Below are positions 20,486-39,075 of a stretch of DNA of 64,000 nucleotides, in pieces. Numbering within the stretch: position 1 is the stretch's first letter; every line of letters begins with the position of its first letter. The notes below the pieces were generated by a model. It saw only the letters and a program-made list of their open reading frames with translations, made no database searches and was not told the DNA's origin. Source of the stretch: Piscinibacter gummiphilus. GTDB taxonomy: Bacteria > Pseudomonadota > Gammaproteobacteria > Burkholderiales > Burkholderiaceae_C. The position numbers and the translations under genes were made by a program. The DNA lies in NCBI RefSeq assembly GCF_032681285.1, contig NZ_CP136336.1:3087001-3151000 (forward strand), in the 5' to 3' direction.

Positions 20486-21892
<1,407 letters not shown>

Positions 21893-24531: not shown

Positions 24532-24709
24532 GCAAAAGCTGCCGGTGACCGGAAAAGTCTTCCGCCGGCGCGCCACCCGGCGTGCCGCGCCGCGAACGCC
24601 GCAGCGCGAGCAATCACGGGGCCTGCCGCCCGTCACGCCGGGCCCGCCGCCGCCAAGGCACGGTCGTTGCATTGAGGCTTGCCCATCTTTGGCTCTCACA
24701 CGGCTTTCA

Positions 24710-26152
24710 ATGACCTCGATGTACTTGCATACCGAGCAACGCCAGCAGCAAGGGCTTTCGCCGCGTTTGCAGCAAGCGGTGCGCCTGCTCCAGTTGTCGT
24801 CGCTCGATTTCGCGCATGAAGTGCAGGCCGCCGTCGACAGCAACCCCTTCCTCGACACGGTGGACGACGAAGCGCCCGACGAAGCTGCCGCCGCCGCGCC
24901 CGACATGCCGCTGCCCGAGGCCACGCATGCCGACGCCCTGGAAGCGCCGGCCGTCACCATGGCCGACGAGGGTGGCGACGCCCAGGACAGCTGGCAGACC
25001 GCCGGCCCGTCCGACACCCCGCGCAGCGACGACCTCGACGCCTCGCCGATGAACCGCGTGGCCGCCGAGACCTCGCTCAGCGAATACCTGCTGCGCCAGT
25101 TGCATGTGCTGCCCATCCCGCCGCGCGACATGCTGCTCGCCGAGGCCATCGTCGAGTCGCTCGACGACGACGGCTACCTGCGCATGGACGACCTCTCCGA
25201 GCTGATCCCCGTGATCGAGCTCGACCCCGCCGTCACCGTGCCCGAGTTGCAGATCGCACTCAAGCGCGTGCAGTCGCTCGAGCCTGCCGGCGTGGGCGCG
25301 CGCAGCGTGGTCGAGTGCCTGCTGCTGCAACTCGACGGCATCGAGGACGCGCGTGAGCGTGAATTGGTGCGCCTCCTCGTGTCGGAAAAACTCGAGAGCC
25401 TCGCGCACAAGGATGCCGCAACGCTCGCCAAGCAACTGGGCCGCCCGGTCGACGAAGTGGCCGCGGCCTGTGCCCGCATCCGCCGCCTCGACCCGCGCCC
25501 CGGGTGGCGCTTCGGCTCGGCCGACATCCGCTACATCACGCCCGACGTGATCGTGAAGAAGGTGCGCAACAACTGGACGGTGTCGCTCAACCCCGCCATC
25601 GTGCCCAAGGTGCGGCTGCACCGCGTGTACGCCGAGATGTTCCAGCGCCACCAGCAGGCGCAGCACCCCGAGCTCGCCTCGCAGCTGCGCGAGGCCCGCT
25701 GGACGCTGCGCAACGTGGAGCAGCGCTTCGCCACCATCCTCGGCGTGGCGCAAGCCATCGTGAAGCGCCAGCACCACTTCTTCGACTACGGGCCGCTCGC
25801 GATGAAGCCGATGGGCCTGAAGGAGATCGCCGAGGAGGTGGGCGTGCACGAGTCGACCGTCTCGCGCGTCACCAACAACAAGTACATGGCCACGCCGAGC
25901 GGCGTGTTCGAGCTCAAGTACTTCTTCTCGCGCGCGATGACGGCCACGAGCGGCACCGCGTTCTCGGGCACCGCGATCCGCGGGCTCATCAAGGACATGA
26001 TCGAGAACGAGAAGCCCGACAACCCGCTGTCGGATGCCGAGATCACCCGCCAGCTCGCACAGCAAGGCTTCGTGGTGGCGCGCCGCACGGTCACCAAGTA
26101 CCGCCACCTGTTGAAGGTGGAGCCGGTGGAGCGGCGGCGCAACGGCACCTGA
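24710..26152 (+). CDS. rpoN: RNA polymerase sigma-54 factor (probably a second copy)
   Basis: A 480-residue RpoN starting at MTSMYLHTEQ (an internal ATG at 24719 is also possible). Region I is Gln/Leu-rich ('SPRLQQAVRLLQLSSLDFAH'), region II is acidic (about 45-110), and region III holds the core-binding and DNA-binding parts ('KEIAEEVGVHESTVSRVTNN' helix-turn-helix and 'FFSRAM'). The RpoN box near residues 457-465 reads ARRTVTKYR instead of the canonical ARRTVAKYR. The usual Burkholderiales context (lptB upstream, hpf/ptsN downstream) is absent here, so I infer an additional rpoN copy dedicated to local genes. A sigma-54 promoter lies upstream. Confidence 0.95.
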   Translation: MTSMYLHTEQRQQQGLSPRLQQAVRLLQLSSLDFAHEVQAAVDSNPFLDTVDDEAPDEAAAAAPDMPLPEATHADALEAPAVTMADEGGDAQDSWQTAGPSDTPRSDDLDASPMNRVAAETSLSEYLLRQLHVLPIPPRDMLLAEAIVESLDDDGYLRMDDLSELIPVIELDPAVTVPELQIALKRVQSLEPAGVGARSVVECLLLQLDGIEDARERELVRLLVSEKLESLAHKDAATLAKQLGRPVDEVAAACARIRRLDPRPGWRFGSADIRYITPDVIVKKVRNNWTVSLNPAIVPKVRLHRVYAEMFQRHQQAQHPELASQLREARWTLRNVEQRFATILGVAQAIVKRQHHFFDYGPLAMKPMGLKEIAEEVGVHESTVSRVTNNKYMATPSGVFELKYFFSRAMTATSGTAFSGTAIRGLIKDMIENEKPDNPLSDAEITRQLAQQGFVVARRTVTKYRHLLKVEPVERRRNGT

Positions 26153-26183: not shown

Positions 26184-29000
26184 ATGACCCCTTCGCACAA
26201 CCGCCGCCGCGTCCTTGCCGGCCTCTGGGACGCCGCCTGGCTTTACCGTCGCCGCACGCTGGCGGCCATCGGCCTGCTGTTGCTGGCGAAGGTGGCCACG
26301 GTGTGCGTGCCGCTGCTGCTGAAAGCCATCGTCGACCAGTTCAGCCGCCCCGAAGGGCTGGCGCAAAGCGTGCCGCAAAGCGCTGCGCCCGACCTGCCCG
26401 CCGGGCAGATCGTGCTCGTGATCCCGGTCTTCCTGCTGCTGTCGTATGCGCTGCTGCGCTTCGCCGGCACGCTCTTCACCGAGCTGCGCGACCTGGTGTT
26501 CGCTCCCGTGACGCGGCGCACGGTGATCGCGATGTCGCAGCGTGCCTTCTCGCACCTGCTCTCCTTGAGCCCGCGCTTCCACGTGCAGCGCAACACCGGC
26601 TCGCTGATCCGCGACGTGGAGCGTGGCACCGCAGGCGTGGGTTTCCTGCTCGGTGCCGGGCTCTTCACCGTGGTGCCCACGCTGGTGGAATTCGTCGGCG
26701 TGCTGCTGGTGATGGCCAGCGGCTACAGCCTGTGGTTCACGCTCATCATCATGGTGACCTTCGTGGTCTACGGCGCGGTGACGATGGGGCTCACGCAGAA
26801 GCGAGAGCTGCGCCAGCGCCGCGTCAACGAGATGGACTCGCGCGCCAACGGCCGGCTGGTCGACAGCCTGCTCAACTACGAGACCGTCAAGACCTACGCC
26901 CGCGAAGACTACGAGCGCCGCCGCTACGCCGAGATCTGCGACGAATGGGTGCGCGGCAGCGTGCACAACCAGCGCGCCCTCTCGGGCCTGCACATCAGCC
27001 AGAGCGCCATCATCGCGGGCGGCGTGGCCGCGGTGATGATGCTTGCCGCCGAGCAGACGGTGCGCGGCGTGATGACAGTGGGCGACCTCGTGCTCGTCAA
27101 CGCCTACGTGATCCAGATCTGCATGCCGCTCAATGCGCTCGGCTTCGTGTTTCGCGAGGCCAGCGATGCACTCGTCAACACCGAGAAGCTCTTCAACCTG
27201 CTCGACCAGCGACCCGACATTGCCGACCAGCCTGGCACGCCGCCGCTGCAGGTGAAGGAAGGCGTGGTCAGCTTCGAGAACGTCGACTTCTCGTATGAGG
27301 CCGGCCGCCAGGTGCTCTACGGCGCCTCGCTCACCATCGGCGCCGGGCAGACGGTGGCGGTGGTCGGCGGCAGCGGCTCGGGCAAGTCGACGCTCGCGCG
27401 CCTGCTGCTGCGCCTGTACGACGTGAACCAAGGCCGCATCACCGTCGACGGGCAGGACATCCGCCACACCACGGTCGGCTCGCTGCGCGAGGCCATCGGC
27501 GTGGTGCCGCAAGACACGGTGCTCTTCAACGACACCATCGCCTACAACATCGCCTACGGCCGCCAGGGCGCCGGCATGGCCGATGTGATCGAAGCGGCCA
27601 AGGCCGCGCAGGTGCACGAGTTCATCCTCTCGCTGCCGCAGCAGTACGAGACGACCGTCGGCGAACGGGGGCTCAAGCTCTCGGGCGGCGAGAAGCAGCG
27701 CATCGCCATCGCACGCGCGTTTCTCAAGAACCCGCCGATCATGATCTTCGACGAGGCCACCTCCGCGCTCGACACCCGCGCCGAGCGCGCCATCCAGAGC
27801 GAACTCGACCGCATCGCCGAAGGCCGCACCACCCTCGTCATCGCGCACCGGCTCTCCACCATCGTCAACGCCGACGAGATCGTGGTGATGGACAAGGGCC
27901 GCATCGTCGAGCGCGGCAAGCACGACGACCTGCTCGCCCACGGCGGCCTCTACGCCCAGCTGTGGAGCCTGCAACGCCAGCAGGCGCAGTTCGAGCGCCT
28001 GGAGCGGCAGCTGGCGCGCCAGCCGGTGAACCTCGTGGCGCTGGTGGCAAACGCGATCGACGGGCTGCGCGAAGCGATCGACGCACGCCAGGTGCGGCTC
28101 TACACCGATGTCGACATCGACAACGCCAGCGTCACCGGCGACCCCACCACACTCGCGCAGGCGCTGCGCGAGGTCTGCGTCTGGGCCCTCGACGCCACGC
28201 CGGTGGGCGGCCGCGTGGCGATCAAGCTCGACCGCGTGGAGGGCCGCGTGCGCCTGAGCGTGACCGACGGCCGCGATGCCGCGTCGTCGCCCCACCTGGC
28301 GGCGAGCGACTGGCAGCGCCCGCACGGCACCGACACGCCGGTCGACCCGATGGAGCTGCGCTCCACGCTCGAGCGCCAGGGTGGCACCTTCCACATCGAG
28401 CCGCCCGGCTCCGTCAAGGGCATGCGCTACGTGATGGAGCTGCCGCTCAGGGCGGTGACCGTCGAGCCCGCCGCGCCGGCGAGGGGCGAAGAGCCCCCGA
28501 TGCACACACCGGCCGACCCCTTGCAGGGCCTCTCGATCATGGTGATCGACGACAACGCCGATGCACGCGAAGCGCTGGGCATGGTGCTCTCGGTGCAGGG
28601 TGCCGAGGTGCTGTCGTTCGGCCGCGGCCACGATGCACTCTCGTGGCTGGCCAGCCACCCGAGCGGCCAATGGCCCGACCTGCTGGTGTGCGACATCATG
28701 CTCGACGAAGAAGATGGCCACACCGTGATGCGCCAGGTGCGGCAGCTCGAAGAGGAGCGCCACGTGCCGCTCGATCGCAGCATGCCCGCCATCGCACTCA
28801 CGGGCTTGGCCGAAGCCGGCGACCGCATGCGCGCGCTGATGGCCGGCTTCCAGGTGCACCTGGTCAAGCCGGTCGAGCCCGACGAGCTGATCCAGACCCT
28901 CTTCAACCTCGCCGGCCGCCACGGCGGCGACTCGGCGCCGGGAGCCCTGCCGCCCACCGGCATGCCGCCTCCTGCATCCCCCAGACCGGAGATCCACTGA
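26184..29000 (+). CDS. Atm1-type ABC exporter fused to a degenerate histidine-kinase ATPase domain and a receiver domain
   Basis: A 938-residue single open frame. Residues 1-335 are a type IV ABC membrane domain with six hydrophobic segments and the Atm1/ABCB7 signature 'LLNYETVKTYARE' (229-241). Residues 360-590 are a complete ATPase: Walker A 'GGSGSGKST' (395-403), signature 'LSGGE' (499-503), Walker B 'IMIFDEA' (519-525), H-loop H555. Residues about 615-756 have the strand/helix pattern of a HATPase_c domain ('VNLVALVANAIDGLREAIDA', 'GDPTTLAQALREVCVWALDA') but lack the N-box Asn and the glycine boxes, so ATP binding there is doubtful. Residues 784-910 are an intact receiver (D789, D790, phospho-acceptor D837, T873, K895). 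No HisKA is present. I know of no described family with this order; it suggests export gated by phosphorylation. Confidence 0.9.
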   Translation: MTPSHNRRRVLAGLWDAAWLYRRRTLAAIGLLLLAKVATVCVPLLLKAIVDQFSRPEGLAQSVPQSAAPDLPAGQIVLVIPVFLLLSYALLRFAGTLFTELRDLVFAPVTRRTVIAMSQRAFSHLLSLSPRFHVQRNTGSLIRDVERGTAGVGFLLGAGLFTVVPTLVEFVGVLLVMASGYSLWFTLIIMVTFVVYGAVTMGLTQKRELRQRRVNEMDSRANGRLVDSLLNYETVKTYAREDYERRRYAEICDEWVRGSVHNQRALSGLHISQSAIIAGGVAAVMMLAAEQTVRGVMTVGDLVLVNAYVIQICMPLNALGFVFREASDALVNTEKLFNLLDQRPDIADQPGTPPLQVKEGVVSFENVDFSYEAGRQVLYGASLTIGAGQTVAVVGGSGSGKSTLARLLLRLYDVNQGRITVDGQDIRHTTVGSLREAIGVVPQDTVLFNDTIAYNIAYGRQGAGMADVIEAAKAAQVHEFILSLPQQYETTVGERGLKLSGGEKQRIAIARAFLKNPPIMIFDEATSALDTRAERAIQSELDRIAEGRTTLVIAHRLSTIVNADEIVVMDKGRIVERGKHDDLLAHGGLYAQLWSLQRQQAQFERLERQLARQPVNLVALVANAIDGLREAIDARQVRLYTDVDIDNASVTGDPTTLAQALREVCVWALDATPVGGRVAIKLDRVEGRVRLSVTDGRDAASSPHLAASDWQRPHGTDTPVDPMELRSTLERQGGTFHIEPPGSVKGMRYVMELPLRAVTVEPAAPARGEEPPMHTPADPLQGLSIMVIDDNADAREALGMVLSVQGAEVLSFGRGHDALSWLASHPSGQWPDLLVCDIMLDEEDGHTVMRQVRQLEEERHVPLDRSMPAIALTGLAEAGDRMRALMAGFQVHLVKPVEPDELIQTLFNLAGRHGGDSAPGALPPTGMPPPASPRPEIH

Positions 29001-29494
29001 TGAGCACCACCGGAAGCTATTTCGCCGACCGCGCCGCCGCCCAACGCGCGGTGCAGATGGCGCTACCCATGATCGAACCCGCGATGCGCGAGCCCGGCGT
29101 GTGCGGCAGCGGCTTCCTGGTGATCGTGGTGATGGACCCGGCGCTGCACCCGGGCGACTGCCCGTTCGACGACGCCGTGCTGCTCGAACACTGCATCGGC
29201 GACCGCACGAAGTGGGACGCCGACTATGCCGCCTTCGCCCGCGGCAAGGCGCGCCTGTCGTGGCAGCACCGCACGGGCAGCGCCGAGCTGCAGTCGGCAC
29301 GCGCGCATGCGTTGCGCGAGGGCGAAAGCATGCTCTGGGGCAGCGTGTGCCTCGACGGCATCGTCGTCGGCGTGAGCGGCGCCGAAGCCTGGTGGGACGA
29401 AGCCTTCGCCACCGCCGTCGCGGCCAACCTGCGTGCCATCGCGAAGGAGCGCCACGCGGCCCTGCTGAAAGACCGCCAGCTCTGGGTGGACTGA
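29000..29494 (+). CDS. Small cytosolic protein, possibly GlcG/HbpS-like
   Basis: A 164-residue protein whose ATG overlaps the stop of the ABC fusion gene (TGATG), so it is translationally coupled to it. No signal peptide. The central part 'FARGKARLSWQHRTGSAELQ' (about residues 76-95) and 'LWGSVCLDGIVVGVSGAEAW' (about 113-132), followed by an amphipathic helix, resemble the DUF336 GlcG/HbpS fold, whose members bind haem or cofactors; HbpS in Streptomyces modulates a sensor kinase. The similarity is a pattern judgement and could be wrong. Tight coupling to an exporter with a receiver domain suggests a sensory or accessory role. Confidence 0.5.
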   Translation: MSTTGSYFADRAAAQRAVQMALPMIEPAMREPGVCGSGFLVIVVMDPALHPGDCPFDDAVLLEHCIGDRTKWDADYAAFARGKARLSWQHRTGSAELQSARAHALREGESMLWGSVCLDGIVVGVSGAEAWWDEAFATAVAANLRAIAKERHAALLKDRQLWVD

Positions 29495-29553: not shown

Positions 29554-30300
29554 ATGTCCAACACCCCCAGCCTGCAAGGCCAAACGATCATCATCACCGG
29601 CGGCAGCCGCGGCCTCGGCGCAGCCATTGCGCAGGTGCTCGGCGAAGAAGGCGCCCTTCTCGTCATCGCCGACCTGGCGCTGGAACGTGCGCAAGACCGC
29701 GTGGCCGTGCTCGCCGAAAGCGGCATCAAGGCGCTGGCCATGCCGCTCGACGTGGGCGACGAAGAGCAGGTGCGCCAGGTGATCTCGGCCACGCGCGAGC
29801 GCTTCGGCCGGCTCGACGCGGTCATCAACAACGCGGCCATCGACATCACCGTGCCCATCGCCGAGCTCACCAGCACCGACTGGGAGCGCGTGGTGCAGAC
29901 CAACCTCACCGGCCCCTTCCTCATGGCCAAGCACGCCGCGGCCGCGATGGGCCCGAAGACGGCCAAGGGTGGCGGGGGCCACATCGTCAACATCGCCTCC
30001 ACCGCCTCGAAACGCGCCTGGCCCAACGCAGCGGCCTACCACGCCACCAAGTGGGGGCTGCTCGGCCTCTCGCATGCGCTGCATGCCGAGCTGCGCCCGC
30101 AAGGCATCAAGGTTTCGGCGGTGGTGGCGGGCGGCATGCGCACGCCCTTCCTGCTCGACCGTTTCCCCGACATCGACCCCGGCGTGCTGCAAGACCCGCT
30201 CAACGTGGCCCGCACCGTGCGCTTCGTGCTCACGCAGCCCGACGAGACCGTGATCCCCGAGATCACGGTGCTGCCGATGCGCGAGACCTCCTGGCCCTGA
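29554..30300 (+). CDS. SDR-family oxidoreductase (3-oxoacyl reductase-like)
   Basis: A 248-residue classical short-chain dehydrogenase with 'TGGSRGLGAAIA' (cofactor loop), 'NNAAID' and the catalytic set Ser in 'NIASTAS', Tyr and Lys in 'YHATKWG'. The Asp in 'VIADLAL' (about residue 42) at the end of the second strand favours NAD(H). GGGAG precedes the ATG by five bases. The stop overlaps the ATG of the cysteine hydrolase gene (TGATG), so the pair is coupled. A sigma-54 promoter lies directly upstream. The substrate cannot be inferred; many such proteins reduce 3-oxoacyl or sugar carbonyls. Confidence 0.9.
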   Translation: MSNTPSLQGQTIIITGGSRGLGAAIAQVLGEEGALLVIADLALERAQDRVAVLAESGIKALAMPLDVGDEEQVRQVISATRERFGRLDAVINNAAIDITVPIAELTSTDWERVVQTNLTGPFLMAKHAAAAMGPKTAKGGGGHIVNIASTASKRAWPNAAAYHATKWGLLGLSHALHAELRPQGIKVSAVVAGGMRTPFLLDRFPDIDPGVLQDPLNVARTVRFVLTQPDETVIPEITVLPMRETSWP

Positions 30301-31003: not shown

Positions 31004-32794
31004 ATGATCACGCTCGGGCTGAATGCCGCCTTTCACGATTCGTCGGCTGCCCTGGTGGTGGATGGTGTGGTGGTCGCAGCGGCCGAAGAAGAGCGCTTCA
31101 CCCGCATCAAGCATGGCAAGCGCCCCGTGCCGTTCTCGGCCTGGGAGCTGCCGTTCAACGCCATCGACTTCTGCCTCCAGCAGGCCGGCGTGACGCTCGC
31201 CGACGTCGACCACGTGGCCTACAGCTACGACCCCAAGACCTTCCTCGGCGAGCGCCACGCCCCCACGATCACGCTGCCGCTGGAGCCCTCGGCCGCCGAC
31301 CACGGCGACTGGGAAAGCCCCTGGGACCCGCTCTTCGCCGCCTACATCGTCAACGCACCGCGCCAGCTCGCCGATGGCTGGCCGCACCACCTGCGCAAGC
31401 GGCTGAGCGGTGTGAAAGCCACAAGCGCGCCCTACCGCTGGCATTTCGTCAACCACCACACCTGCCACCAGGCGAGCGCCTTCCTCGCCGCGCCCTACCC
31501 GCGCTGCGCGGTGATGACGCTCGACGGCCGCGGCGAGCACGCCACCACCACCTACGGCCGCCACCGCGACAGCCGCTACGAGCCGATGGGCGAGGTGCTG
31601 ATGCCGCATTCGCTGGGCATGCTCTACGAGCAGATGACCACGCACCTCGGCTTCCTGCATTCAAGCGACGAGTACAAGGTGATGGCGCTCGCCGCGCTCG
31701 GCACACCGCGCTTCGCCAGGCGGCTGCGCGACGCCATCCACATCGGGGCCGACGGCCAGTACACCATCGATCCCATCGACCTCACCGCCATCGCGGGCCC
31801 GGCGCGCGAGCCCGGCAGCCAGATGGCCGAGGCGCACCTCGACCTTGCCGCCTCGCTGCAGGACGTGCTCGAAAGCGTGGTGATCGAGCTGTGCGCCTGG
31901 CTGCGTGAAGCCAGCGGAGAGCGTTACCTCGCGATGGCCGGTGGCGTGGCGCTCAACTGCGTGATGAACGCCCGCCTGCGCGACAGCGGCATCTTCGACG
32001 GCATCTGGGTGCAACCCGCCGCGGGCGACGCCGGCACCGGCCTCGGCGCGGCACTCTGGGTCGACGCTCGCGAGCGCCGCGGCCTGGCGCCCACCGACGC
32101 GAAGGAGCAGGCGGTCAACACCTTCGCCCCCCGCCGCTGGCAGATGGATCACCCCTACCTCGGCCCCGCCTACGGCGACGACGAGATCGAGCAGCTGCTG
32201 AAGTGGGCCAAGCTGCCCTACCGCCGCTGTGAAGACCTCGCGGCCGAGACGGCCGAGCTGCTGGCCGCCAACCGCATCGTCGGCTGGTTCCAGGGCCGCA
32301 TGGAGTTCGGCCCGCGATCGCTCGGCGCGCGCTCCATCCTCGCCTCGCCCATCGACCCGGCCATGCAGGCCCGCCTCAACGAACTGAAGGACCGCGAAGA
32401 CTTCCGCCCGGTGGCGCCCGCGGTGCCTGAAGAAGAACTGGGCAACTGGTTCCGCCCGGCCGAGGCCAACGGCGGCCAGTCGCCCTTCATGCTCTTCATC
32501 TACGACCTCGCACCCGGTGCCGCAGAGCGCATTCCCTCGGCCTGCCACACCGACCGCACGGCCCGCGTGCAGACGGTCAATCGTGACACCAACCCCCGCT
32601 TCCATGCGCTGCTGAAGGCCTTCGGCAAGAAGACCGGCGTGCCGGTGCTGGTCAACACCTCGTTCAACGTGCGCGGCGAGCCCATCGTGTGCTCGCCCAA
32701 GGCGGCGATCGAGGCGTTCTTCAGCACACCGCTCGATGCACTCTCCATCGGCAGCTTCCTCGTCGAAAAGCCAAGCCTGCAGCCAAGCACATGA
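31004..32794 (+). CDS. NodU/CmcH-family carbamoyltransferase
   Basis: A 596-residue O-carbamoyltransferase, the normal family length. The N-terminal Kae1-like domain begins 'LGLNAAFHDSSAALV' and contains 'NHHTCHQASAFLAAPY' (about residues 149-164) with the HxxxH metal motif that makes carbamoyl-adenylate. 'AGGVALNCVMNARL' (about 312-325) and the C-terminal domain motifs 'FGPRSLGARSILASP' and 'VNTSFNVRGEPIVCSP' are intact. It transfers a carbamoyl group from carbamoyl phosphate to a sugar hydroxyl. The coupled downstream glycosyltransferases (ATGA overlap) suggest decoration of a surface glycan or glycolipid. It is driven by a predicted sigma-54 promoter. Confidence 0.93.
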   Translation: MITLGLNAAFHDSSAALVVDGVVVAAAEEERFTRIKHGKRPVPFSAWELPFNAIDFCLQQAGVTLADVDHVAYSYDPKTFLGERHAPTITLPLEPSAADHGDWESPWDPLFAAYIVNAPRQLADGWPHHLRKRLSGVKATSAPYRWHFVNHHTCHQASAFLAAPYPRCAVMTLDGRGEHATTTYGRHRDSRYEPMGEVLMPHSLGMLYEQMTTHLGFLHSSDEYKVMALAALGTPRFARRLRDAIHIGADGQYTIDPIDLTAIAGPAREPGSQMAEAHLDLAASLQDVLESVVIELCAWLREASGERYLAMAGGVALNCVMNARLRDSGIFDGIWVQPAAGDAGTGLGAALWVDARERRGLAPTDAKEQAVNTFAPRRWQMDHPYLGPAYGDDEIEQLLKWAKLPYRRCEDLAAETAELLAANRIVGWFQGRMEFGPRSLGARSILASPIDPAMQARLNELKDREDFRPVAPAVPEEELGNWFRPAEANGGQSPFMLFIYDLAPGAAERIPSACHTDRTARVQTVNRDTNPRFHALLKAFGKKTGVPVLVNTSFNVRGEPIVCSPKAAIEAFFSTPLDALSIGSFLVEKPSLQPST

Positions 32795-33771
32795 CGCCGA
32801 GAATTTCCGTTGTCATTCCCACCTACAAACGCCCGCAGCTCCTGCTGCGCTGCCTCAAGTCCGTCCTGACCCAGCGCTTCGAGACCGACGCCTACGAAGT
32901 GATCGTGGTCGACGACGGGCACGACGACGCGACGAAGCACCTCGTCGAGTCGCTCATCAACGGTGCCCCGCTCGCCGCCGAGCTGCGCTACCTGCGCCCG
33001 CCCATCGGCCGTGGCCCGGCGGTCGCGCGCAACGTAGGCTGGCGCGCGGCGCGCGGTGCGCTCGTGGCCTTCACCGACGACGACACCGTGCCCGCCCGCG
33101 ACTGGCTGGCCGAAGGCGAACGGGTGATGGCCAAGCACCCCGAGTGGGTGGCGATGTGCGGCCGCGTCAGCGTGCCCATCCCGGGCGAAACCACCGACCA
33201 TGCGCGCATGACGGCTGGCCTGGCCAAGGCCGAGTTCGTGACGGCCAATGCCTTCGTGCGCCATTGGGCACTCGAGAAGGTGAACGGCTTCGACGAGCGC
33301 TTCGCCCGCGCCTGGCGAGAAGACTCCGATCTGCAGTTCCGCCTCATGGCCGAGGTCGGCCACGTGGGCCGCAGCGCGCGCGCCGAGGTCGTGCACCCCG
33401 TGCGCTCGGCGCCCTGGGGCCTGAGCCTCTCGCAGCAGCGCAACACCTTCTACGACGCGCTGCTCTACAAGAAGCACCCGCGGCTCTACCGCGAGCGCAT
33501 CCGCCCGGTGCCGCCGTGGAATTACTACCTGATCGTGGCGCTCGCGTTCGCCGCACTCGTGCTGCTCTTCTTCCGCCAGATCGAGTGGGCGATGGGCAGC
33601 CTGGCGGTGATGGTGGTGCTCGTGCTGCACCTCGCCTTCGAGCGGCTGCGAGACACCAGCCACCGGCTGCCCCATGTGCTGGAGATGCTGGCCACCTCGG
33701 CGCTGATCCCCTTCCTTTCGGTCTACTGGCGGTTGCGCGGCGCCATCCACTTCAGGGTGCTCTTCCTGTGA
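32791..33771 (+). CDS. Family 2 glycosyltransferase with C-terminal membrane segments
   Basis: A 326-residue protein; the ATG at 32791 overlaps the carbamoyltransferase stop (ATGA). The GT-A fold shows 'VVIPTYKRPQLLLRCL' at the N-terminus, 'VIVVDDGHDD' (nucleotide site), the metal-binding 'FTDDDTVPARDWL' (about residues 91-103), and 'GFDERFARAWREDSDLQFRL' (about 168-187) with the acceptor-site acidic residues. Two hydrophobic helices at about 250-285 anchor it in the inner membrane, with a third possible segment near the C-terminus. It probably adds a sugar to a lipid-linked or surface glycan modified by the neighbouring carbamoyltransferase. Confidence 0.92.
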   Translation: MTPRISVVIPTYKRPQLLLRCLKSVLTQRFETDAYEVIVVDDGHDDATKHLVESLINGAPLAAELRYLRPPIGRGPAVARNVGWRAARGALVAFTDDDTVPARDWLAEGERVMAKHPEWVAMCGRVSVPIPGETTDHARMTAGLAKAEFVTANAFVRHWALEKVNGFDERFARAWREDSDLQFRLMAEVGHVGRSARAEVVHPVRSAPWGLSLSQQRNTFYDALLYKKHPRLYRERIRPVPPWNYYLIVALAFAALVLLFFRQIEWAMGSLAVMVVLVLHLAFERLRDTSHRLPHVLEMLATSALIPFLSVYWRLRGAIHFRVLFL

Positions 33772-34724
33772 ACACGCCAAAGCGCCGGCTGCGCATCCTG
33801 ACCTGGCATGTGCACGGCAACTATCTCTACTACCTCACGCAGGTGCCGCACGACTTCTACCTCGTGACCGACGCCGAGCGTTCCACGCACCACAGCGGGC
33901 GAAGCGGCATCCTGCCCTGGGGCGACAACGTGCACGAAGCGCCGGTCGAGCAGATCGCCGGCATGCCCTTCGATGCGATCCTCTTCCAGTCGCGCGACGC
34001 ATGGGAGCGCGAGCAGCACCTCATCCTCTCGGAGGCCCAGCGCCGCCTGCCGCGTCTCTACCTCGAGCACGACCCACCGCAGCAGCACCCCACCGACACC
34101 CCGCACTGGGTGGACGACCCGGCCGTGCTGCTGGTGCACGTGACGCACTTCAACCAGCTGATGTGGGACAACCGGCGCACGCCCAGCCGGGTGGTCGAGC
34201 ACGGCGTGAAGCCGCTCGCGAGCGTGCCCTGGACGGGCGAGATCGAGCGCGGGCTGGTGGTCGTCAACAACCTCGACCGCCGTGGCCGCCGCCTGGGGCT
34301 GGACGTCTACCAGCAGGTCGCGCCACAGGTGCCGCTCACGCTCGTGGGCATGGGCAGCGAGCGCTGCGGCGGCGCGGGCGAGGTCTCGCACCACGAGCTG
34401 CCCAAGCGCATGGCCGCACACCGCTTCTTCTTCAACCCGATCCGCTACACGAGCCTCGGCCTGGCCATCATCGAGGCCATGATGGCCAGCACGCCCATCG
34501 TCGGCCTGGCCACCACGGAGCTGAGCACCGTGATCAGGAATGGAGGCAATGGCATCATCGACACCCGCGTCGACGCCCTCGTCGCGGCGATGCGCGAGCT
34601 GATGGCCAACCCTGCCGAGGCGCGGCGCCTGGGTGAAGCCGGCCGACGCACTGCACAGGAGCGCTTCCACATCGGGCGATTCGTCGACGACTGGATGCGC
34701 GTGTTCCACGAAGCCACGAGTTAA
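33768..34724 (+). CDS. GT-B (family 4-like) glycosyltransferase
   Basis: A 318-residue protein starting at a GTG that overlaps the previous stop (GTGA). The N-terminal half is a compact Rossmann domain; the C-terminal half has '[20 protein letters not shown]' and the donor-site region '[20 protein letters not shown]' (about residues 222-241), with the E-x7-E-like spacing of GT4 enzymes. It is shorter than a standard GT4 protein. It closes the coupled three-gene carbamoyltransferase/glycosyltransferase operon and probably builds the same glycan. Sugar donor and acceptor are unknown. Confidence 0.85.
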
Positions 34725-34740
34725 AAATCACAAGACACTC

Positions 34741-38223
<3,483 letters not shown>

Positions 38224-38244: not shown

Positions 38245-39075
38245 ATGCCCACCACTCGGGACCAGGACATCGAGCTTCGCCTGCTCATCGACGCGATCTT
38301 CCACAAGTATCACTACGACTTCCGCGGCTACGCCACAGCCTCGCTCAAGCGCCGCATGGGCAGCGCGATGACGCGCTTCGGCTGCAGCACGCTCTCGCAG
38401 CTGCAGGACAAGCTGCTGCACGACCCCAGCATCTTCCCGCCACTGCTCGACTACCTCACCGTGCAGGTGAGCGAGATGTTCCGCGACCCGAGCTACTACA
38501 AGGCGCTGCGCGACGAAGTGGTGCCGCTCTTGCGTACCTACCCCTCGCTCAAGGTCTGGGTGGCCGGATGCAGCGCGGGCGAAGAGGCGTATTCGATCGC
38601 CATCCTGCTGCGCGAAGAGGGGCTGCTCGAGCGCACGCTGATCTACGCGACCGACATCAACACCGACGCGCTCAAGCGTGCCGAGGCGGGCGTCTACCCG
38701 CTGGAGCAGATCGCCCTCTACACGCAGAACCACCAGAAGAGCGGCGGGCACTCGTCGCTGTCGGACCACTACACCGCGGCGTATGGCCGCGCGGTGTTCG
38801 ACAAGAGCCTGCGCAAGCAGATGGTCTTCTCCGACCACAGCCTCGCGACCGACAGCGTGTTTGCCGAAGTGCACCTCGTCTCGTGCCGCAACGTGCTGAT
38901 CTACTTCGACCGCCAGTTGCAGGACCGCGCGCTCGGCCTCTTCAGCGAGGCGCTGTGCCGCAAGGGCTTCCTCGGCATCGGCAGCAAGGAGTCGCTGCGC
39001 TTCTCGGTGCACCGCGAGGCCTTCGAAGACTTCGTGCCGCAGGAGCGGATCTTCCAGCGCAGGAGCGAGGCATGA
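38245..39075 (+). CDS. CheR-type protein-glutamate O-methyltransferase
   Basis: A 276-residue CheR with the N-terminal helical domain (about 1-85) and the SAM-binding catalytic domain ('KVWVAGCSAGEEAYSIAILL', about residues 106-125; 'IYATDINTDAL'; 'VSCRNVLIYF'). It would methylate glutamates of a chemoreceptor-like partner using SAM. No methyl-accepting protein is encoded nearby, so the target may be the CHASE3/coiled-coil region of the adjacent hybrid kinase, which is inference. Its stop overlaps the ATG of the CheB gene (ATGA). There is no TPR or chemoreceptor-tethering extension. Confidence 0.93.
   Translation: MPTTRDQDIELRLLIDAIFHKYHYDFRGYATASLKRRMGSAMTRFGCSTLSQLQDKLLHDPSIFPPLLDYLTVQVSEMFRDPSYYKALRDEVVPLLRTYPSLKVWVAGCSAGEEAYSIAILLREEGLLERTLIYATDINTDALKRAEAGVYPLEQIALYTQNHQKSGGHSSLSDHYTAAYGRAVFDKSLRKQMVFSDHSLATDSVFAEVHLVSCRNVLIYFDRQLQDRALGLFSEALCRKGFLGIGSKESLRFSVHREAFEDFVPQERIFQRRSEA

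Follow-up and report, generated by a model that had tools for sequence, protein, structure and literature searches.

A conserved single-chain fusion of an Atm1-type ABC exporter, a degenerate kinase-type ATPase domain and a receiver

The gene at positions 26184..29000 on the plus strand of the window, by which we mean the whole 64,000-nucleotide stretch of Piscinibacter gummiphilus DNA analysed here, encodes a 938-residue fusion protein in which an intact Atm1-type half-exporter, a dead kinase-type ATPase domain (a pseudo-HATPase, called pseudo-CA below) and a chemically intact receiver are conserved as one protein. Two genes, for a NodU-type carbamoyltransferase and for a partner protein of 164 residues, are inherited along with the fusion. 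Tentatively, and with somewhat less than even confidence, we read the fusion as an exporter derived from Atm1 that would carry a product of a glycoconjugate pathway and be gated in trans by two-component phosphorylation via a pseudokinase adaptor.

Anatomy, spread and origin of the chain

The exporter half consists of an ABC transmembrane domain (residues 27-316; 26262..27131, plus strand), where Q211 and H270 stand in place of the Arg and Asn of stand-alone Atm1, and a nucleotide-binding domain matched by Pfam at residues 380-527 (27321..27764, plus strand). Its motifs are Walker A (395-403), the LSGGE signature (499-503) and the DE pair (523-524), with the switch His (555) just past the Pfam match, in agreement with the original prediction of an exporter with all ATPase motifs intact. 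Walker A, signature and Walker B are also intact in 24/24 copies from the window's family, and the Walker-A Lys, Q-loop Gln, signature Ser, catalytic Glu and switch His in 231 of 231 database proteins, these being the ones of at least 850 residues among the 240 listed, which are best matches and hence biased to typical members. In the predicted structure a single helix (residues 589-611; 27948..28016, plus strand) runs without a break from the ABC ATPase into the pseudo-CA domain (residues 616-756; 28029..28451, plus strand), which has lost the N-box Asn and the G boxes, and the chain ends with the receiver (residues 785-906; 28536..28901, plus strand) containing D789, D790, D837, T873 and K895. 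The full-length model has a pTM of 0.51, and the arrangement of the domains is a predicted one.

The uninterrupted frame of 938 codons joining these three parts is real, since the chain recurs in related genomes and among the listed proteins, and the same domain order was found in one chain in other genomes and in database proteins. With the join preserved in 30 genome copies and more than 200 listed proteins, a sequencing artefact, be it a frameshift or a stop codon lost somewhere in residues 595-620, is rejected.

Within the window's family, a genome search placed the full-length fusion in at least 24 of the 399 genomes, spread over 15 of 141 genera; the threshold was strict (E <= 1e-215) and these counts are therefore lower bounds. 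Within the order, a tail profile gave matches in 27 of 399 sampled genomes, and besides the window's own, six of them, from three other families, carry the fusion (three in f4, one in f21 and two in f32). When 39 loci from the order and phylum tail-profile matches were examined, 33 proved kinase-like without an ABC half and six had one; approximately 13 weaker matches had no locus and fall outside these 39. In 398 genomes sampled across the phylum, every fusion seen belonged to the window's own order. One listed database relative, P0077, is labelled Acidobacteriota, which may be due to misbinning. Searching proteins with residues 560-938 gave 120 best relatives, the query included, of which 113 of at least 780 residues were aligned and seven shorter ones dropped. 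A second search seeded with six distant members returned at least 120 proteins, and all the matches listed carry the three domains as strong hits; they include proteins from Burkholderia, Bordetella, Achromobacter, Castellaniella and Azoarcus.

Two quick trees, both with SH-aLRT support only, bear on the origin. With 30 fusions set against 33 kinase tails, the C-terminal halves of the fusions fall on one side of a branch with a support of 100. In the tree of ABC halves, which has long outgroup branches and compares the 30 fusions with 22 stand-alone Atm1 and eight other ABC proteins, they again fall on one side (support 99) and branch beside bacterial stand-alone Atm1. Since both halves of the 30 genome copies group, a single ancient fusion event appears as the simplest account of these sequences.

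Cargo and co-inherited genes

The solved structures nearest to the transmembrane part are AtAtm3, ABCB7, CtAtm1, NaAtm1, ScAtm1 and ABCB6, while a whole-chain query instead puts P-glycoproteins on top, with two matched stretches each. The pocket was compared between 74 fusions (thinned from the listed proteins plus six distant members) and 22 stand-alone Atm1, which comprise the strain's own and those of 21 loci (L011-L031). A strict two-sided filter over the first 599 positions passed only positions 89, 211, 270 and 323. In the AtAtm3 study, the pocket residues given as conserved in AtAtm3, NaAtm1, ScAtm1, ABCB7 and ABCB6 are T317, R324, R328, N387, Q390, L433, G437 and R441 (PMC9000953). Since our numbering equals that of AtAtm3 minus 117 in the transmembrane part, this list corresponds to T200, R207, Q211, H270, Q273, L316, G320 and R324 in the fusion, where six of eight are kept and two are changed. 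Position 211 is Gln in 73/74 fusions and Arg in 21/22 stand-alone Atm1; position 270 is His in 74/74 fusions and Asn in 22/22 stand-alone Atm1. Among the listed proteins of at least 850 residues, Q211 is present in 228/231 and H270 in 231/231.

With two of the eight glutathione-pocket residues replaced family-wide, glutathione is probably not the cargo of the fusion exporter. The same strain also encodes a separate stand-alone Atm1, 54% identical, and from this together with the altered pocket we infer that glutathione export may have stayed with the stand-alone protein, the fusion having switched to another cargo. The label Atm1/ABCB7-like given in the original prediction is thus apt for the sequence, the motifs and the nearest structures, but needs care with regard to the pocket.

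Ordinary Atm1 function, i.e. export of glutathione, a persulfide or a metal-thiol compound by a protein with a redox-linked regulatory tail, would agree with the position of the branch next to stand-alone Atm1 and with the six retained pocket residues. We regard it as improbable, given that the strain has its own stand-alone Atm1 and that Q211 and H270 supplant polar pocket residues nearly throughout the listed proteins. A further point against it is C313 in TM6, found in 111/111 nearer relatives, where the AtAtm3 study reported TM6 to be without Cys in 410 plant Atm3 homologues (PMC9000953); the weight of this is limited, as the Cys is present in only 32/120 of the second set and 23/30 genome copies.

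Immediately downstream of the fusion lies the gene for the partner protein, 164 residues of an unnamed family (29000..29494, plus strand), whose ATG overlaps the TGA of the fusion by one base (TGATG). It is followed on the same strand by an SDR oxidoreductase, a conserved neighbour (29554..30300), by the co-inherited carbamoyltransferase (31004..32794) and by two glycosyltransferases (32689..34724), one of family 2 (ORF 32689-33771) and one of group 1 (33840-34724). Conservation of the neighbours was counted in stretches of 6.4-19.5 kb round 29 other fusion loci, and homologues of the SDR were near the fusion in 19, of the carbamoyltransferase in 15 and of the partner protein in 13. Where the partner was nearby, it was directly downstream on the same strand in 10 of 13 loci, and all three genes were absent from the stretches round 6/29. 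At one locus (L180) the carbamoyltransferase is accompanied by heptosyltransferase-type glycosyltransferases and a HAD hydrolase.

The partner protein was found in 17/24 fusion genomes as compared to 4/374 others (Fisher 6e-21), or by genus in 10/15 against 2/126 (3e-10), and the carbamoyltransferase in 22/24 against 10/360 (5e-26), or by genus in 13/15 against 6/126 (3e-12); these tests presuppose an identical set of genomes behind each search (399, 398 and 384, with the two unlisted fusion genomes taken to be among the 384), and relatedness is handled only via the genus count. Among the 22 fusion genomes with the carbamoyltransferase, six have matches that span no more than approximately the first 360-380 of its 596 residues, and one has a match split in two. 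The split one is in G056 (C1:2642860-2644598), as residues 1-269 and 265-590, possibly by a gene break or a sequencing error. Outside the family the partner protein occurs in 6/6 fusion genomes. Seven fusion genomes in the family are without it; a loose threshold brought up a match of 34 residues in one of them and nothing in the other six. Conversely, four genomes have the partner with no fusion found, and three of these four have the carbamoyltransferase; no ABC half was present beside their strongest tail-like places in six stretches of 7.5 kb.

No Pfam domain was found among the best 120 of 377 relatives of the partner family, which are called 'hypothetical protein' where named, and no PDB sequence matched the partner up to E=1. 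Its comparison with HbpS-like PF03928 reached E=0.026 and 15 bits, against a cut-off of 25, in one of four members, a hint below the threshold on which we base no name.

The pseudo-CA domain, the receiver and phosphate control

The loss of the N-box and glycine boxes that had been claimed for the HATPase_c-like domain is seen in nearly all family members. In the N-box column Asn occurs in 0/113 nearer proteins and 11/120 of the second set; most kin of the window have DGR for DxGxG, a motif that is absent or altered in others, G2 is replaced, and the place of the ATP-lid region is taken by a variable linker rich in Ala and Pro, whose median identity to that of the window is 17%. No HisKA/DHp domain was matched by Pfam in the chain, and the join at residues 597-616 is too short to hold one. 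Being without a phospho-acceptor domain and without intact N, G1 and G2 boxes, the protein does not qualify as a histidine kinase. The assignment as pseudo-CA is based on sequence and strand order, the 50 rows listed by the fold search being receivers or receiver-holding chains by title.

Other features persist. GDP, TP-GGR and DPLxLRSxxERQGG are largely retained in the 113 nearer proteins, and the 30 genome copies have G734 and R677 in 29/30 each, with looser conservation of the Asp of DGR, the Pro of DP and the Thr of TP (22/30 each). Loci L107-L111 deviate most in these motifs and several distant members are changed too, D653 and D721 excepted. When compared with the window copy, residues 616-700 show a median identity of 53% and residues 719-756 one of 63%; the transmembrane part has 65%, the ABC ATPase 77% and the receiver 51%, and at such levels the pseudo-CA looks like a domain under maintenance, not decay.

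The receiver has the acidic pair, the phospho-Asp, the Thr/Ser and the Lys together with a receiver fold, and the five phosphorylation residues originally named in it are widely conserved: D790 and D837 each in 231/231 listed proteins, D789 in 229/231, T/S873 in 230/231 and K895 in 225/231. In the 30 genome copies, K895 is present in all and D789, D790 and D837 in 26. The exceptions form one genus, g53, where 4/4 fusion genomes (L099, L100, L102 and L103) have the acidic pair replaced by Glu-Pro and the phospho-Asp by Glu, with the exporter intact, so that phosphorylation cannot be indispensable everywhere. The g53 receiver is its most diverged part, 43% identical to ten relatives compared with 61% among those ten, while the first pseudo-CA part gives 56 vs 66% and the transmembrane part 73 vs 73%. 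The genus thus cuts both ways: an exporter that lacks the site can persist, and loss of the site went along with faster divergence of the receiver. At g53 loci L122, L123, L125 and L126 the fusion is near another ABC exporter adjoining a small gene, presumably a pair like the cyanophycin-associated ABC/DUF1854 one.

The same genus offers an argument for regarding the C-terminal module as a scaffold, serving in dimerisation or localisation or in docking of the partner or a biosynthetic complex, with phosphorylation vestigial or reduced to fine-tuning. Its receiver persists at 79% identity within the genus despite the loss of the acidic pair and a Glu at the phospho-site, and the pseudo-CA has kept D653 and D721 in 30/30 genome copies. 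We find this rather unlikely: the phospho-Asp is invariant among the listed proteins aligned, and the drop in g53 receiver identity next to an unchanged transmembrane part looks as if the site had mattered before its loss, with the caveat that the first pseudo-CA part also fell, less strongly.

The original prediction had pointed to neighbouring genes as natural sources of phosphate, which found little backing. These are RpoN, upstream (24665..26152, plus strand), a CHASE3-GAF-HisKA-HATPase hybrid kinase with three receiver stretches (34699-38223) and sigma-54 regulators, among them a response regulator named by sequence reading (20486-21892, minus strand). Their homologues are near only 4, 3 and 8, respectively, of the 29 other fusions. 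RpoN is directly upstream in both other fusion genomes of the window's genus and rarely near elsewhere. Since these genes mostly do not stay beside the fusion, the idea that RpoN or the nearby kinase works as one unit with it is not supported. The ORF at 38245, after the hybrid kinase, looks CheR-like. A cognate kinase conserved beside the fusion was not found in the stretches round the 29 other loci.

This last result also weighs on a reversed flow of the signal, where the exporter would sense flux or cargo and the receiver serve as a phosphate sink or allosteric kinase partner, letting transport tune a two-component network in a transceptor-like manner. The pseudo-CA resembles DivL weakly by sequence (4q20, E 1.1e-5), and DivL is a pseudokinase that reads a receiver. 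CbrA shows that a transporter and two-component domains can share one chain (PMC13022988). With no kinase conserved beside the fusion and, HisKA being absent, none in cis, we consider such a reversal unlikely.

Returning to a phosphate-gated exporter, an intact receiver site and no kinase in the chain mean that phosphate must come in trans. The protein would be a homodimeric Atm1-derived ABC exporter that has lost glutathione specificity and moves a product of a carbamoylated-glycoconjugate pathway over the inner membrane. A histidine kinase or phosphotransfer protein would phosphorylate the C-terminal receiver and thereby set exporter activity, and the degenerate CA, with neither ATP nor kinase activity and continuous with the ABC ATPase through a single long helix, would be the adaptor that relays the receiver state to the ATPase dimer and alters its dimerisation. 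In some Atm1 structures the ATPase domains are said to interact via C-terminal extended elements (PMC9329353), and these contacts, together with the junction helix at the C-terminal end of the ABC ATPase, are the ground for proposing an effect on dimerisation. We infer the dimer, the phosphorylation and its direction of effect, the cargo and the adaptor role.

The phospho-site is retained over most of the depth of the order. Of the originally suggested exporter set by two-component phosphotransfer, the anatomy of such control is present and conserved, while direct phospho-control of transport is deduced from it; given that the fusion recurs in many related bacteria, the pump is probably under direct phosphate signalling. 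A fuller version, in which the transporter is a phosphorelay output whose kinase-phosphorylated receiver gates the ABC exporter of the same chain via a pseudokinase lever, with a carbamoylated glycoconjugate having taken the place of glutathione as cargo and with the co-inherited partner family taking part, is possible but doubtful. Against a gated exporter we counted the lack of a conserved nearby kinase, the site loss in g53 and the Atm1-like state of most of the pocket, and also the loci without all three neighbours, the partial carbamoyltransferase matches, the variable pseudo-CA motifs and the modest pTM.

Comparison with known systems

Two-component receivers are best known as controllers of DNA binding, enzymes and motors. 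If true, a conserved receiver inside an ABC exporter would place transport under direct, transcription-independent phospho-control. The genus without the phosphorylation site is a natural experiment inside the family, and since the fusion occurs in cultured bacteria such as Azoarcus olearius the idea can be tested now. The annotation of one family member as 'ATM1-type heavy metal exporter' (P0209) calls for caution, as not every Atm1-like protein is a glutathione or heavy-metal exporter.

That no described family could be named holds for the open-licence literature searched, where neither the titles and abstract openings of the papers listed nor two passages of PMC4618731 describe an ABC exporter-receiver fusion, but not for the databases, where P0126 is annotated as 'ABC transporter, membrane component, C_term Response regul...'. 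The parts are known and the assembly is already in databases; the idea closest to it is that of CbrA, a transporter-kinase 'transceptor', which differs in its type of transporter and in having a kinase (PMC13022988).

The fusion resembles Atm1/ABCB7-type exporters (NaAtm1, AtAtm3 and ScAtm1) in the sequence of the half-exporter, the ATPase motifs, the neighbouring branch and six of eight pocket residues, and differs from them by two pocket replacements, the pseudo-CA and receiver tail and the genomic link to a carbamoyltransferase. With hybrid histidine kinases (HisKA-HATPase_c-REC) it shares the CA-REC order and sequence kinship, from which its tail is probably derived, but it has no HisKA and no usable ATP boxes and sits on an ABC exporter instead of a sensor. 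Pseudokinases such as DivL have an altered CA domain too; the fusion, unlike these, is without a DHp and has its receiver in cis. The SLC5-STAC kinases (CbrA and CrbS), described as 'transceptors', also combine a transporter with two-component domains in one chain, and no SLC5 symporter, STAC or kinase domain was found among the Pfam matches of the fusion up to E=1: theirs is a kinase on a symporter, whereas in the fusion an ABC exporter carries a receiver and the kinase is absent.
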